From positions 620,001-684,000 of the forward strand of contig NZ_BNEL01000003.1 in NCBI RefSeq assembly GCF_018327685.1: 64,000 nt of DNA. The letters run 5' to 3'. The notes under the pieces were generated by a model. That model was not told the DNA's origin. It saw only the letters and a program-made list of their open reading frames with translations, and did not search any database. How positions within the stretch are numbered: the first letter of the stretch is position 1; the number at the start of each line of letters is the position of its first letter. Of the stretch, positions 57,227 to 62,369 are shown in pieces. A program made the position numbers and the translations under genes. The stretch is from Streptomyces sp. TS71-3 (GTDB lineage: Bacteria > Actinomycetota > Actinomycetes > Streptomycetales > Streptomycetaceae).

Positions 57227-57655
57227 ATGGCTTCCCACCGGCGCGACCCGCGCGCCCCCTCGGCGCCGTACCTCGCCTTCTGGCGCGAACGGCGCTTGTG
57301 CACCCTGACGACCCTGCGCCCCGACGGCACCCCCCATGTAGTGCCCGTCGGAGCGACGTACGACCCCGAGGCGGGCCTGGCCCGGGTGATCGCCTCCGGG
57401 GACAGCGCGAAAGTACGGCACGTGCGCGCGTGGGCGGAACGCGAGGACGGCGGCGGTGGCGCGGCGGTCGCCGTCTGCCAGTTCCAGGGGCGGCTGTGGG
57501 CCACCCTGGAGGGCCTCGCGGTGGTCCGTACGGAACCGGAGCTGATCGCCGACGCGGAGCGGCGCTACGAGGAGCGGTACGGCCGCACCCCGCGCCCGAA
57601 CCCGCGCCGCGTCCTCATCGAGATCAGCCTCACGACGGCCCTGGGCAACACCTGA
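57227..57655 (+). CDS. PPOX/F420-type flavin-binding split-barrel protein
   Basis: This 142-residue split-barrel protein starts MASHRRDPRAPSAPYLAFWRERRL and continues with LTTLRPDGTPHVVPVGATYD, AVCQFQGRLWATLEGLAVV and EERYGRTPRPNPRRVLIEI. It fits the pyridoxamine-5'-phosphate-oxidase-like group that often binds F420 in actinobacteria. Substrate and cofactor are not decided. It is divergent from clpB, sharing the HAIR region, so heat-shock control is possible. Confidence 0.85.
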   Translation: MASHRRDPRAPSAPYLAFWRERRLCTLTTLRPDGTPHVVPVGATYDPEAGLARVIASGDSAKVRHVRAWAEREDGGGGAAVAVCQFQGRLWATLEGLAVVRTEPELIADAERRYEERYGRTPRPNPRRVLIEISLTTALGNT

Positions 57656-57780
57656 CCGCCCCCCGGCCGGGGCGCTACCGGCGTCGGCGTCCGGCAACCA
57701 CCCACCTGCCGGTGGTCCGGACACGGCAGAGGCTGCCCCTTTCGGAGAGTGGCGATCTGACGCTGTCGTCGTGGTTGCTC

Positions 57781-57890
57781 GCGCGGTTCCCCGCGCCGCC
57801 TTAAATGCGGGGCTAAGCCCCGTTCTGCGGCTTCGCCGCATGGGCTGTCGGGGCGCAGCCCCGCTTCTTAAGGGGCGCGGGGAACCGCGC
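57781..57890. repeat. Inverted pair of variant dispersed cores
   Basis: A forward variant core (57781-57799, GCGCGGTTCCCCGCGCCGCC) and a reverse variant (57872-57890, GGGGCGCGGGGAACCGCGC) face each other between the convergent PPOX and Rieske-like genes. The pair shares the A-to-G change in the core, which suggests co-evolution of the two arms. The gap 57656-58114 holds no gene. Confidence 0.85.
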
Positions 57891-58114
57891 GAGCAACCAC
57901 CCACGACCGGATGGTCCGGACACGGCAGAACCACCCCTCCGAGACGGCCCCACGGCCCGAAGGGCAGACGGACGCACCCCGAACAACCCGCACCCCTCCC
58001 CGGCCCGCCAAGCCGCCAGGCAAAACTGCAGCGGCGCCACCGTGTCTCAGGTCCACGGTGACGCCGCTGCGGGGGGGAAGTGCCTGCGCGATCTGTTACG
58101 ACGGGGGAACCGCG

Positions 58115-58453
58115 TCAGGCACTGCGGGGGGTGGCGGAGATGGTCTTGGGTACTCCAGCTGCCTCGGGGTCGATGGGCTGGCGGTCACGCTGGTCGAGAT
58201 TGACGAAGATCATTCCGTAGCGGACAGCGCACCGCACGGGCTTCGGCGCCCCGCGCGGGCGGCGCAGGCACCTGTAGGCCCTTATGTCGTCGTCACCGTC
58301 ACGGGCCACGACGACCGGTTCACCGAACAACGTCACCATCAGCGAGTCGCCAGGGTGGGGGATGGCCGTGACGAGGTCGATGAAGTGCCATCCGGAGCGG
58401 TAGGCCGTCGCCATCTCGCGCCGGAAGGAACGGTCGTCGGGAGGGGTGGTCAT
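58115..58453 (-). CDS. Rieske-like protein lacking iron-sulfur ligands
   Basis: The 112-residue product follows the N-terminal fold of Rieske oxygenase domains (AYRSGWHFIDLVTAIPHPGD, SLMVTLFGEPVVVARDGDDD, YGMIFVNLDQRD). The part that should carry the Cys-His / Cys-His cluster ligands is shortened to RCLRRPRGAPKPVRCAVR: only two Cys remain and there is no His. It cannot bind a normal [2Fe-2S] cluster. ATG 58453 overlaps the stop of the repeat-peptide gene by 4 bases (ATGA), so the two products are made together. Confidence 0.72.
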   Translation of the reverse strand: MTTPPDDRSFRREMATAYRSGWHFIDLVTAIPHPGDSLMVTLFGEPVVVARDGDDDIRAYRCLRRPRGAPKPVRCAVRYGMIFVNLDQRDRQPIDPEAAGVPKTISATPRSA

Positions 58454-58788
58454 GCCTTCACCGAGCCAACGGAGTTGCCCCAACCCGTGTCCGCAGGGGT
58501 CGCCATGCGGTTACCCCAGCCCGTGTCGGCCGGGACCGCCCGGACGAGCGTGCCCCAACCGGTATCAGCGGGGACGGCACCGCGCTGAGCGACACCCCAG
58601 CCCGTGTCACCGGAACCACCCTGCACAGACGAACCCCAGCCGGTGTCGCCGGCCACCGTCCGCTCCATGCCCACGGTGTCCTGCGCCGGGGACTCGACCT
58701 GGGCCGCAACCACACCACTGAGTGCTCCAAAAGCCACGACCGTGGAGAAAGCGGTCGCAAGTACTCCGCGAAGCAATCTCGTGTACAT
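58450..58788 (-). CDS. Secreted peptide with five DTGWG repeats
   Basis: This 112-residue protein has a signal peptide (MYTRLLR, hydrophobic GVLATAFSTVVAFGALSGVV, cleavage near Ala29-Gln30). The mature part carries five exact DTGWG motifs at residues 48-52, 61-65, 75-79, 88-92 and 100-104, spaced 12-14 residues. Each is preceded by Gly or Ala and followed by S, V, T or N. I know no family. It is coupled to the Rieske-like gene and divergent from a LuxR-type regulator. It could be a multi-core peptide precursor, a surface repeat peptide, or a signal; these are inferences. ATG 58788 gives a good signal peptide. Confidence 0.8.
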   Translation of the reverse strand: MYTRLLRGVLATAFSTVVAFGALSGVVAAQVESPAQDTVGMERTVAGDTGWGSSVQGGSGDTGWGVAQRGAVPADTGWGTLVRAVPADTGWGNRMATPADTGWGNSVGSVKA

Positions 58789-58803
58789 AGTCGGCTTCGT
58801 CCT

Positions 58804-58817
58804 CACTTGATGAAGTG
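58804..58817. promoter_or_regulatory. Palindrome CACTT-N4-AAGTG in the divergent gap
   Basis: A 5-4-5 inverted repeat lies 16 bases upstream of the repeat-peptide start, in the gap shared with the first LuxR-type regulator. A second, shorter palindrome GATGCATC is at 58875-58882. Either may be a regulator site. Confidence 0.45.
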
Positions 58818-58919
58818 TTCTCCCCCGGTGCAACAAGACGATGGCTCATTCAGGCACGTCAATGCCACAGGAGCGATGCATCATGTTCTTGCACGTTCAG
58901 GACCCTGGGGGGTGGAGAA

Positions 58920-59903
58920 TTGCCTATTACTTCCACAAAGCCGACACATCCCCACTCGCTGGCCGAACTGTGCGACGAGGGGGCGCAGCTCTACGCGAGC
59001 GCGCTCAGTGCCGGTCGCATCGCGAGGGCGGAGGTGACGGCCACGCCGTGCCTCCTTGACTTCGCCCTGCTGCAACCGGACCCTGACGACCCGAACTGGC
59101 TGCGGCCCGTCCCGCCTTCGGTGGCCCTGGCCCAGCGGCTCCACCCCCTGGAACGGGAGATCCTCGACAAGCGACGGCTGTCCATCGAACTGACCGAATC
59201 ATTCGAGCCATTTATGGCTCTGAGTGCCCAGACCCCCGCCCCCACCCACTCGATCACCGTCCTGGAGGGTCTGGACCGCATAAACGCTGCTCTGAACCTG
59301 GCCACCGCGGAGTGCCGCACGGAGGTGCTCACCGTGCAGCCCGGAGGCCGCCGCTCCGAGCACATACTGAATCAGGCCCTCGAGCGCGACCGCCCCTTGA
59401 CCAACCGCGGCGTCCGCATCCGCACGCTCTACCAGCACACTGTCCGGCACAGCCAGGGCACGATGGCCTACGTCGACCAGATGGCGGACGGCCTGGTGCA
59501 GATACGCACCCTGGAAGAGCTCATAGAGCGCCTGATCGTCTGCGATGAGACCGTGGCCTTCATCCCGGCGGGCGACCAGCCGGACTTCGCGCTGGAACTC
59601 CGCCACCCCGGCCTCGTCAGATACCTGGTCAAGGTCTTCGAGCAACTGTGGCGCCGCGGCGTCCCCCTCCTGGAGGAAGTCCCGTACGATCCCACGCCGG
59701 ACGGCATCACCGGCGTTCAGCGGACGATCGCCAAGCTCCTCATCGAGGGACACGTCGACGAGGCCATCGCCCGGCGCCTCGGCATGAACGTACGCACCTG
59801 CCGGGCGCACATAGCGAAGCTCGCGGCCGCCCTCGGCAGCGGCAGCCGGGCCCAGCTCGGATACCTCATCGCGCGATCGGGAATCCTGGAGACCGACCAG
59901 TGA
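58920..59903 (+). CDS. LuxR-type regulator with PLD-like sensor domain (paralogue 1)
   Basis: The 327-residue regulator is divergent from the repeat-peptide operon. It has an N-terminal region (LAELCDEGAQLYASALSAGR), a central fold shared with paralogue 2 (LTVQPGGRRSEHILNQALER, VRIRTLYQHTVRHSQGTMAY, LIVCDETVAFIPAG) and a C-terminal LuxR-type helix-turn-helix (AIARRLGMNVRTCRAHIAKL). TTG 58920 is chosen because it aligns with paralogue 2; its ribosome site GGAG is close (2 bases), so the start is uncertain. It probably controls the repeat-peptide genes. Confidence 0.78.
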   Translation: MPITSTKPTHPHSLAELCDEGAQLYASALSAGRIARAEVTATPCLLDFALLQPDPDDPNWLRPVPPSVALAQRLHPLEREILDKRRLSIELTESFEPFMALSAQTPAPTHSITVLEGLDRINAALNLATAECRTEVLTVQPGGRRSEHILNQALERDRPLTNRGVRIRTLYQHTVRHSQGTMAYVDQMADGLVQIRTLEELIERLIVCDETVAFIPAGDQPDFALELRHPGLVRYLVKVFEQLWRRGVPLLEEVPYDPTPDGITGVQRTIAKLLIEGHVDEAIARRLGMNVRTCRAHIAKLAAALGSGSRAQLGYLIARSGILETDQ

Positions 59904-60012
59904 TCCGGTGACCCTGGGCCGTTCGCGACCATCAGCACCTCGAAGGGACCGGAGAGGCGGCCCCGTACAGGACCGGCGACCGGCCCGTGGACTTCCGGCA
60001 GGAGGGCGGTCT

Positions 60013-60993
60013 GTGAGCCAGGAGAGCCATCCACACGCCGCGGACGAGCAGGTGTGCGCGGCTGGCATGGACCTCTATCGGCGCGCGCTCCGTGAGGGCC
60101 GTGTACCGCTCGTGGACGCCGGCGCCGCCCCCTGTGCCGTCGGCCTCGGCCTGCTCTACCCGGACGGCGAGGACACGCAGTGGCTGCGCCCCGTCGCCCC
60201 CTCCCTCGCCCTGCCCCGCCTGCTGCACACCGTCGAGGCCGACATCGAGCGCCGGCGGCGCGGCGAGGTCGCGCTCGCCGAGGCGTTTCAGCCACTCATG
60301 ACGATGCGCACCGAACACGCCCTCACGCAGGACCACGCCGTGATCAGCATCCTGCGGGGACACCAGCCGATCAACGAGGCGATCGACGAGGCCCGCTCCG
60401 AGTCGTCCGAGGAACTGCTCACCGTGCAGCCCGGCGGCCGGCGCCCGCCCACCCTGCTGAGATGGGTGCTCCCCACCGAACAGGCCCTGCTCGACCGCGG
60501 CGCCCGGATGCGCACCCTCTACCAGCACACCTCCCGGCACGCCCCAGCCGTCCTCGACCACTACGAGCAGCTCCACGGCGACGTGCAGGTGCGCACGCTG
60601 AACGAGGTCACCCAGCGGCTGGTGATGCTGGACCGCCGGGTGGCCTTCGTGCCCGCCAACTCCGACGGCACTGCCGCCTTCGTGATCCGCCATCCGGCGC
60701 TGATCTCGTTCCTGGCCACCACCTTCGAGCGCTTATGGGACCTCGCTACCCCCATGTGGCCCCGCCCCGCCCCGGAGGTCCCCGACGCGGGCGGCTTCAC
60801 CCGCCGGCAGCGCGCCATCGCCGCCCTGCTGATCGAGGGCCTCACGGACGACAAGATCGCCCTGCGTCTCGCGATGAACGTCCGCACCGTCCGCGTGCAC
60901 ATCGCCAAGCTCGCCGACATCCTCGGCACGTCGAGCCGGGCCCAACTCGGCTACCGGATCGGGCAGTCCGGAATCCTGGAGCAGGACGCGTAG
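60013..60993 (+). CDS. LuxR-type regulator with PLD-like sensor domain (paralogue 2)
   Basis: The 326-residue protein shares its whole length with the preceding regulator (CAAGMDLYRRALREGRVPLV, LTVQPGGRRPPTLLRWVLP, MRTLYQHTSRHAPAVLDHYE, VTQRLVMLDRRVAFVPAN, KIALRLAMNVRTVRVHIAKL). GTG 60013 follows AGGAGGG with 7-8 bases, a good ribosome site. It lies 109 bp after paralogue 1 on the same strand. Tandem regulators of the same type suggest a duplicated signal pathway, perhaps one for each signal. Confidence 0.85.
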   Translation: MSQESHPHAADEQVCAAGMDLYRRALREGRVPLVDAGAAPCAVGLGLLYPDGEDTQWLRPVAPSLALPRLLHTVEADIERRRRGEVALAEAFQPLMTMRTEHALTQDHAVISILRGHQPINEAIDEARSESSEELLTVQPGGRRPPTLLRWVLPTEQALLDRGARMRTLYQHTSRHAPAVLDHYEQLHGDVQVRTLNEVTQRLVMLDRRVAFVPANSDGTAAFVIRHPALISFLATTFERLWDLATPMWPRPAPEVPDAGGFTRRQRAIAALLIEGLTDDKIALRLAMNVRTVRVHIAKLADILGTSSRAQLGYRIGQSGILEQDA

Positions 60994-61487
60994 TGGTCCT
61001 GCGGTACACGCGAGCGGTACACGGGACCCCCGGTGTGCCGGAGTCACCCGATGCAGTGGCAACTGCGAAGACCCGTGGCGCACCCGCCCGTTCAGGCACT
61101 CCGGCCCCTCCCCGGCCGCGCCGGGCAGCCGCGTCCCGGGGCCGCGCCTTTCCGGTCCGCCCCCGGCCTCTCCGTGCAGGCAGGAGGCGGATGTTCCGGT
61201 TGTGCCGCCTGGGTCGACGAGTTGTGTACCGCGAGAGACCGCGCCTCCACTGCCGTGCACACCTTCCAGCTTCCCGGCCTGTCGGGCAGTGGGGCAAACG
61301 ACGACGTGGCAGGGTGTCGCCCGGCGTGGCGCGGTGCCCGGCCCACCGTCCACGCCGGGGGGTGGATTTCCGGTCCGACACCGAGGCGCATCCGGCGGCG
61401 TTTATTTTGTGCACGCCGTTTACACGGATCGGTGGACGGACTCCCCCGCCCCCGGGAAAACTCTGATCGACGGACAAGGAGTACCCC
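60994..61487. other. Intergenic region with AT-rich promoter-like stretch
   Basis: No gene is supported. GGTACACGCGAGCGGTACAC (61009-61028) is a direct repeat of GGTACACG-type units directly after the regulator. At 61397-61430 a low-GC stretch (GCGTTTATTTTGTGCACGCC) is likely the promoter region of the next XRE gene, whose ribosome site is AAGGAG before 61488. Confidence 0.5.
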
Positions 61488-62369
61488 GTGGGATTGCGCA
61501 GCACCATCAGCGAGCGCCAGCGACGTCTTGGTTTCGAGCTGAAACATCTACGTGAACAGGCCGGGTTGAGCGCCGCGGAGGCGTCGGAGCGGATCGGCAT
61601 GGGCCGCGCCCAGCTCAGCCAGATCGAAACGGCGAAGACCACGATCCTGACCGAGCGGCTCAGGGCCCTCTGCGAACTTTACGGTTGCACAGATAAGTCC
61701 TACGTGGATGCGCTGGTGGCGCTCTCGGAAGCCTCGGGTAAGGGCTGGTGGAGCGCGTACAAACGCTCCATGGTGACGGACGCCCTGAGCCTTGCCGAAC
61801 TGGAAGCAGACGCCCTGGAAGTGCGAATGCACCAGTCGCTCTTCATTCCCGGGCTCTTCCAGACGGCCGGGTACGCCCGGGCCATTTTCAACAGTCCGGG
61901 ACTCGGTTTCGACAATTTCGAGGCGCCTTTGCGGTTCCGTATGGAACGGCAGCGGATTCTCACCGACGAGAATGCGCCGCTGGTACGGGCCGTCATCCAC
62001 GAGGCCGCGCTACGGATACGGTTCGGCGGTGCGCAGGTGGTGCGCGAGCAACTCCTGCGGCTGGTCGAGCTCTCGAAGTTGCCGAACGTGACGATCCAGG
62101 TCTATCCGTTCAGCGCCCAGGCGTACGCGGCGATCAGTGGGAATTTCCTGCACATCATTCCCGGCAACGAGCGGCTGAGCACCGTGGCCCTGGAGCAGGC
62201 CATCGGTTACCAGTACCTCAGCGAGACGTTCCACCTCGAACGCTACAGCGCGATGTTCGATTTGCTGACCGAGAACGCCCTCGCCCCGATCAACGCGTCG
62301 TCGGCACCCGAGGCGCATTCGGCGAAGGACTCGCTCGCCCTTATCCAACACCTGCTTTACACGTTGTAG
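61488..62369 (+). CDS. XRE family regulator with DUF5753 domain (second locus)
   Basis: This 293-residue protein has a Cro/C1 helix-turn-helix (LGFELKHLREQAGLSAAEAS, GMGRAQLSQIETAK) and a DUF5753 domain (HQSLFIPGLFQTAGYARAIF, LPNVTIQVYPFSAQAYAAIS, YQYLSETFHLERY). It is the second WhiJ-like regulator of the window. GTG 61488 follows AAGGAG. The DUF397 gene starts 10 bases after its stop, so they are one operon. Confidence 0.92.
   Translation: MGLRSTISERQRRLGFELKHLREQAGLSAAEASERIGMGRAQLSQIETAKTTILTERLRALCELYGCTDKSYVDALVALSEASGKGWWSAYKRSMVTDALSLAELEADALEVRMHQSLFIPGLFQTAGYARAIFNSPGLGFDNFEAPLRFRMERQRILTDENAPLVRAVIHEAALRIRFGGAQVVREQLLRLVELSKLPNVTIQVYPFSAQAYAAISGNFLHIIPGNERLSTVALEQAIGYQYLSETFHLERYSAMFDLLTENALAPINASSAPEAHSAKDSLALIQHLLYTL

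Follow-up and report, generated by a model that had tools for sequence, protein, structure and literature searches.

A likely exported tetrapeptide pheromone and its proposed TrmB/PLD-LuxR receptor in Streptomyces

The RRNPP systems of Firmicutes, such as Rap-Phr, PlcR-PapR and Rgg-SHP, are characterized by a gene for a short exported pro-peptide that lies beside the gene for a cytoplasmic regulator, with ligand and receptor forming strain-specific pairs (see also PMC10075063 and PMC12998947). In Streptomyces coelicolor, an extracellular oligopeptide signal is described as being imported by the BldK oligopeptide permease (PMC11303876 and PMC5650626). Here we report a locus from Streptomyces sp. 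TS71-3, contained in a window of 64,000 nucleotides (contig NZ_BNEL01000003.1, positions 620,001 to 684,000; the window is the whole stretch analysed, and its own numbering is used below), that resembles the RRNPP systems in both respects: across 138/138 loci bearing the regulator LuxR1, a gene for a small pro-peptide, secreted as judged by sequence, is next to that of this proposed receptor, and the pairs differ from strain to strain. The locus is likely to encode a tetrapeptide pheromone that is exported and then recognised by a receptor of the TrmB/PLD-LuxR type, as indicated by the strict linkage of the two genes, the uniformity of a short word within each peptide and the residue-level matching of word and receptor.

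A sequence-only reading of this DNA had described a 112-residue protein with a signal-peptide-like N-terminus and five DTGWG motifs 12-14 residues apart, a stop codon overlapping the start of a Rieske-like gene as ATGA, and two LuxR-type genes (LuxR1 and LuxR2) divergent from the peptide gene. The translation and the open reading frame coordinates bear out all of these (Table 1), and add the strand, absent from that reading, which is minus for both small genes. The protein begins MYTRLLRGVLATAFSTVVAFGALSG; its motifs start after residues 47, 60, 74, 87 and 99, that is at spacings of 13, 14, 13 and 12, and the five copies differ by silent codon changes. DTGWG repeats exceed chance: four overlapping pairs with copies 15-45 nt apart are found in the genome itself, and at least one such pair occurs in 13/199 genomes of the genus, this one included (at least two of the 13, G071 and G103, apparently being unrelated), as against 4/199 for a reversed control pattern. 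No family in Pfam or NCBIfam describes the peptide. A database search with one peptide that ends one residue after its last word recovered 186 relatives (E<=0.01); among the 120 listed, those with names are mostly labelled ‘hypothetical protein’, and for two (P0057, P0069) UniRef gives 5'-nucleotidase, which is very probably a misnomer.

To these we added other loci of the genus. The 141 loci extracted comprise the window, the best 80 of at least 519 loci from named genomes and 60 stretches from more divergent genomes (57 main loci and three additional copies, without the main locus of G023 and without the matches to oxygenases). LuxR1 is present in 138 of the 141, its sequences being all distinct (138/138) and 56-92% identical to that of the window, and in each of the 138 a small divergent peptide gene lies directly upstream of the Rieske-like gene. 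The remaining three (L224, L225, L226) hold a second copy of the Rieske-like gene, with about 65% identity to that of the window, and have neither LuxR1 nor peptide. Homologues with conserved repeats are found in other strains.

Across these loci DTGWG is the local version of a wider [D/E/N]-x-x-W family: a [DEN]xxW motif is present in the peptide at 138/138 LuxR1-bearing loci, the peptide frame having been chosen by its signal-peptide score and not by the motif. There are 41 kinds of word, including DTGW, DSTW, DSSW, DVGW, DIAW, DLGW, EPSW, DPGW, NTSW, DSKW and DTRW, and the chance of two random loci sharing a word is 0.042. Within a peptide, a single word is used throughout in 101 of the 108 peptides with at least two motifs; among the seven exceptions, L104 and L114 combine DSRW with DSIW. 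The copy number of the main word ranges from one, in 34 loci, to 18, in two, and 30/138 loci have one motif altogether. Between copies, identity at word positions 1-4 is 1.00, 0.99, 0.95 and 1.00 (the first and last being favoured by the search pattern). The residue that follows the Trp reaches 0.82, and flanking positions are otherwise 0.15-0.31 identical, save one spacer position at 0.48. Identical copies differ silently in the DNA in 90 of the 104 loci where two or more are present. Given this identity profile and the silent differences, the words appear to be held uniform by selection, with the spacers free to drift. Because different Streptomyces carry different words, the pairs would behave like pherotypes.

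Evidence for recognition of the word comes from the receptor. We aligned the LuxR1 sequences, built a tree and looked for columns whose changes fall on branches where the word changes too. Residue 137, which sits inside the TrmB/PLD-like sensor domain, is the top column for word position 2 (z 8.4): 18 of its 23 changes coincide with changes at position 2, with 3.6 expected (P=5e-11; tree built without residues 125-195, branch-length null, 197 columns by three word positions), the runner-up for this position being column 127 (P 9e-4). The states at the 138 loci are paired accordingly: Ser in the word goes with Met in the receptor in 58/58, Thr with Val in 35/36, Pro with Leu in 18/18 and Ile with Val in 8/8; among the rarer states, Val occurs with Val (5) and Ile (1), Leu with Val (7), Ile (2) and Ala (2), and Phe with Ala (1). 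The coinciding events include ten changes of Ser to Thr with Met to Val, plus three reversals; such repetition of the same paired states would not be expected from linkage alone. Together with the silent codon differences, this covariation rules out a tandem-duplication artefact as the source of the repeats. Two further candidate associations fail: position 3 against residue 146 is striking in a cross-table and not significant on the tree, and position 1 against residue 147 (4/4 changes, P 3e-4) loses significance once the testing of 197 columns is allowed for. LuxR2, which is 46% identical to LuxR1, was also tried as specificity partner and gave nothing comparable (73 sequences, 250 columns, largest z 4.6, two events).

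The sensor region of LuxR1 has a profile match to TrmBL2 over residues 46-250 (E 2.8e-8) and a fold match to the sugar-binding domain of TrmB, which makes it a TrmB-type PLD-like sensor domain. At the N-terminus, where TrmB-type regulators carry their DNA-binding winged helix, the profile match starts at residue 46 and the fold match, to 5box, spans 17-252 with a root-mean-square deviation of 9.9; Pfam TrmB is matched in 1/46 aligned members. A C-terminal GerE domain is detected in 43 of these 46 (E<=0.01), the match of the window's LuxR1 falling under the Pfam cut-off (17.1 vs 23.5 bits).

Related pairs are found beyond this locus. Following DTGWG pairs located by pattern, we reached further LuxR-PLD genes at other sites (L041, L042, L235). 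In L041 the peptide is divergent from a LuxR-PLD gene with an MbtH gene behind it (1663-1881), and in L235 (1-954) the pair adjoins a glutamine-amidotransferase-domain gene that is asparagine-synthetase-like by eye; both pairs lie near what are likely to be biosynthetic clusters. From the LuxR-PLD matches ranked by score we next selected 40 loci, passing over those beside LuxR1 and one at the end of a contig. When filtered stringently for a secreted [DEN]xxW peptide next to the regulator, 10/40 pass, with 0-1 of 40 for five control motifs and 0 for 74 control segments. A looser filter flags 18/40, of which 14 were judged peptide-like; it yields a convincing peptide at 5/30 LuxR-PLD loci of genomes lacking the Rieske-like gene, and near 0/5 of the other LuxR-PLD matches in the window's own genome. 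From the looser-filter loci 21 paralogous pairs, 28-39% identical to the window's LuxR1, were chosen by eye, with the exclusion of weaker frames (the second of L301; L302, L311, L319, L321, L234, L245, L252, L263) and of tail-motif frames such as those of L298, L312 and L241. Here Thr goes with Val in 11/12, Ser with Met in 3/5 and Pro with Leu in 0/1, and Val occurs with Ile twice. Outside Streptomyces, 20 loci were scanned, and in two of them, L374 and L375 of family f24, secreted peptides bearing DTSW (two copies) and DTGW lie near a LuxR-PLD gene. Two side observations concern these paralogues: next to LuxR1, LuxR-PLD genes form tandem expansions of as many as four consecutive genes with an additional convergent one (G292:C7:228973-233896, G425:C5:477211-481302, G428:C34:314757-319700), which suggests either that one peptide has several receptors or that the receptors are diversifying; and nine paralogues with Leu at 137 (L295-L298, L300, L302, L319, L323, L325) lie at loci with no convincing [DEN]xxW peptide nearby, and are possible orphan receptors.

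Several points weigh against an exported pheromone read by LuxR1. No receptor column is significant for word positions 1 or 3 after correction, 11 of the 29 changes at position 2 occur without a change at 137 (two placements of Ser to Thr among them), and five changes at 137 occur without one at position 2. A further 39 loci do support the rule, all conforming to it (28 Ser-Met, 10 Thr-Val, one Val-Val, the residue read by alignment), but they share the clades of the first set and so provide a check of the reading and not fully independent evolution; they remain from 69 additional loci after 30 were dropped because the peptide repeated one already present, and for 29 of the 69 the peptides, not the receptor residues, were known before the rule was found. 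Among the paralogues, five pairs are off the rule: Ala (L308) and Leu (L299) with Ser, Ile with Thr (L235, scored on DTGW and also carrying DRGW), Val with Pro (L310) and Leu with Asp (L301). Many LuxR-PLD regulators are without a local ligand, 30/40 being peptide-less under the stringent filter. Beside the peptide-LuxR1 pair no protease or importer was recognised among the scanned neighbours. The signal peptides were called by a simple hydrophobicity rule, and this reading does not account for the conservation of the Rieske-like gene.

We propose the following course of action for the system. The small protein would be exported, and its [D/E/N]-x-x-W words (DTGW in the window) trimmed out as a short linear tetrapeptide or pentapeptide. 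This peptide would probably re-enter the cytoplasm, as RRNPP peptides do through an oligopeptide permease, before meeting LuxR1, which may bind it in the cleft of the TrmB/PLD-like domain. Once bound, the LuxR-type helix-turn-helix would act differently on its DNA sites, a conserved one in the shared promoter among them, with autoregulation as the predicted outcome; target genes beyond this promoter may also be affected.

The candidate site for such autoregulation is GCATCATGTTCYTG, which is almost invariant in the promoter pieces of the 138 loci (peptide start codon to three codons into LuxR1, 120-142 nt in most) and has an inverted partner close to the LuxR1 start; in L198 the repeat is perfect, CATGTTCCTG-N5-CAGGAACATG. 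Among 41 genomes searched GCATCATGTTCYTG is found in 26 (23/25 Streptomyces, 3/16 others), and its place matches that of the Rieske-like gene in 21 of the 23 Streptomyces genomes. No LuxR-PLD gene lies near the six off-locus matches checked, the three non-Streptomyces ones included, and as a key to the regulon the element failed: its matches revealed no wider regulon.

An intracellular alternative is that LuxR1 contacts the whole or unexported pro-peptide as a titrating partner, the signal peptide being incidental or serving disposal. The covariation is compatible with this, as it shows recognition of the word and not its place, and so is the want of a recognised importer or protease nearby; yet all 138 peptides have signal-peptide-like N-termini (the weakest in L150 and L206) despite a divergent remainder, and in 37/138 the last word ends one residue short of the C-terminus, as expected of a processed C-terminal signal. 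We regard titration as unlikely. It is quite unlikely that the peptide is a multi-core precursor of a ribosomally synthesised and post-translationally modified peptide (RiPP) or antimicrobial that LuxR1 senses for autoinduction, with signalling secondary to killing or metal-binding. The multi-copy layout with spacers, and the MbtH and glutamine-amidotransferase-domain neighbours of L041 and L235, would suit such a product; against it stand the single-motif loci and the presence of the Rieske-like marker in 327/392 genomes of the genus (E<=1e-8; at least two matches, in G048 and G336, fall in full-length oxygenase-sized frames), a distribution that resembles that of a core function rather than that of an antibiotic cluster with scattered occurrence. 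Moreover, as the sequence-only reading had observed, no RiPP-modifying enzyme is recognised among the neighbours scanned with Pfam (ClpB, PPOX-type, Rieske-like, LuxR1, LuxR2, HTH_31-DUF5753, MerR and DnaJ_C), a distant enzyme still being possible. Its suggestion of a multi-core precursor therefore survives as repeated copies of one short active-looking word, and not as a RiPP cluster in the usual sense.

The Rieske-like protein could instead be the direct partner of the peptide, in processing, modification or immunity, with LuxR1 regulating the operon only. Its start is coupled to the peptide stop, it follows the peptide in 138/138 loci and its median identity to the window's protein is 83% (range 39-87%, excluding the window itself). 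With such conservation it presumably has a function, which we guess to be regulation or scaffolding within the same response. As specificity partner, on the other hand, it shows no column covarying with the word (34 columns, largest z 2.7), the L041 and L042 pairs have no Rieske-like gene among their frames by eye, and the three extra copies lack a peptide, all of which makes a direct partnership very unlikely. Of 20 genomes without the Rieske-like gene, 16 still have LuxR-PLD relatives. The coupling noted earlier is real at the clpB-side locus of Streptomyces, where both neighbours expected to accompany the peptide do so strictly (138/138); since paralogous LuxR-peptide pairs exist without a Rieske-like gene, LuxR1 is the essential partner. 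The label itself holds as remote homology: a profile match aligns the protein with residues 45-108 of the oxygenase alpha subunit 9jp5 (E 1.3e-5); a second stretch, 172-184 (GMIFxNxD), falls short of significance by itself, yet it suggests that the cluster-binding part between the two is missing. It fails for the ligands, neither CxH nor CxxH [2Fe-2S] motifs being found in 38 aligned Rieske-like proteins. Nothing in the PDB matches the structure model (predicted local distance difference test, pLDDT, 72.6) at E<=0.001; naphthalene dioxygenase comes closest, at 7e-3.

A repeat surface or cell-wall peptide, with structural repeats homogenised by recombination and unrelated to the regulator, which was the other suggestion of the earlier reading, would account for up to 18 copies and for the Pro/Ala-rich spacers, but it is most improbable in view of silent differences between copies with identical residues, the 30/138 single-motif loci and the repeated matched switches of the word with residue 137 of the neighbouring LuxR1.

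Table 1. Features of the locus in window coordinates; LuxR1 residues are counted from position 58917, one codon before the TTG.
Feature	Position	Strand	Remarks
Peptide gene, 112 aa	58450..58788	minus	Translation; proposed precursor of the tetrapeptide signal
Rieske-like gene, 112 aa	58118..58453	minus	Start overlaps peptide stop as ATGA
Divergent promoter region, 131 bases	58789..58919		Between peptide gene and LuxR1
GCATCATGTTCYTG element	58878..58891	plus	Conserved; first half of imperfect inverted repeat; candidate LuxR1 operator
LuxR1, 327 aa	58920..59903	plus	TTG start inferred; TrmB/PLD-like sensor domain and C-terminal GerE helix-turn-helix; proposed receptor
LuxR1 residue 137	59325..59327	plus	Val in window; specificity residue matched to tetrapeptide position 2 (Thr in window)
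LuxR1 residues 146-147	59352..59357	plus	Arg-Ser in window; weaker associations with tetrapeptide positions 3 and 1, non-significant after correction
LuxR2	about 60010..60993	plus	LuxR1 paralogue; start codon uncertain, frame open from 59908

The locus is flanked on one side by a PPOX-type gene and ClpB, and on the other by an HTH_31-DUF5753 regulator, a MerR-type gene, which we take from its position to be HspR, and DnaJ (DnaJ_C). Rfam gives no match at the gathering threshold within 57600-61600. A GGGGAACCGCGCGAGCAA-like element occurs at 57775-57896 and at 14 other places, partly as inverted pairs; in the 64 kb it has 16 matches with at most two mismatches, with 0.02 expected.

The gene order was compared in six loci from named species or strains, some of them presumably related to S. 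coelicolor. In five, LuxR1 and LuxR2 are joined by a third, convergent gene, with an extra fragment in one case, and L168 has two. From this order and the tables of two papers, we infer that SCO3664 is the LuxR1 of S. coelicolor: PMC6585502 reports SCO3664 among insertion mutants with actinorhodin up more than 50-fold, and PMC3282765 lists SCO3665 and SCO3666 as LuxR-type. If so, the pathway may control antibiotic output, and the tabulated phenotype would suit repression of antibiotic genes by LuxR1.

The wider proposition, which we consider likely, is that these loci represent a new class of bacterial peptide communication: a secreted tetrapeptide-repeat precursor with a TrmB/PLD-LuxR receptor, a core trait of Streptomyces that has expanded into paralogous pairs, some beside biosynthetic genes and two in another actinobacterial family, with a code partly readable at residue 137 (Met-Ser, Val-Thr, Leu-Pro). 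Some of the LuxR-type regulators of actinobacteria that lack a ligand would thereby gain one; one group of LuxR-type proteins would then respond to a ribosomally encoded, strain-specific and apparently plain linear signal, whose specificity rule is testable with four-residue synthetic peptides. A search of open-licence PMC papers found no description of peptide/TrmB-PLD-LuxR signalling.

Each of the described systems shares some parts with this one. Rieske oxygenase alpha subunits share the stretch aligned with 9jp5, whereas the window's protein lacks CxH/CxxH and a catalytic domain and is too short for the intervening loops. The BldK-imported signal is likewise an extracellular oligopeptide in Streptomyces, but nothing found connects it with this locus or speaks against a connection. 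The archaeal regulators TrmB and TrmBL2 share the sensor region of LuxR1, by profile and fold, but LuxR1 has an extra C-terminal GerE domain and its proposed ligand is a peptide, not a sugar. The quorum-sensing regulators LuxR and VqmA share the C-terminal GerE helix-turn-helix; unlike them, LuxR1 has no autoinducer-binding domain among its Pfam matches, nor have LuxR2 or the 46 aligned members, and a peptide gene takes the place of the synthase. The RRNPP systems share the organization of the pair but have a tetratricopeptide repeat (TPR) receptor, and no TPR family appears among the Pfam matches of LuxR1 (E<=1) or of the 46 aligned members (E<=0.01); here the proposed receptor is TrmB/PLD-like with GerE, the signal is a four-residue word ending in Trp with 2-18 motifs in most loci, and the host is Streptomyces. 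The pair would work like RRNPP signalling but with a receptor other than TPR, and is not a LuxR of the acyl-homoserine lactone type.
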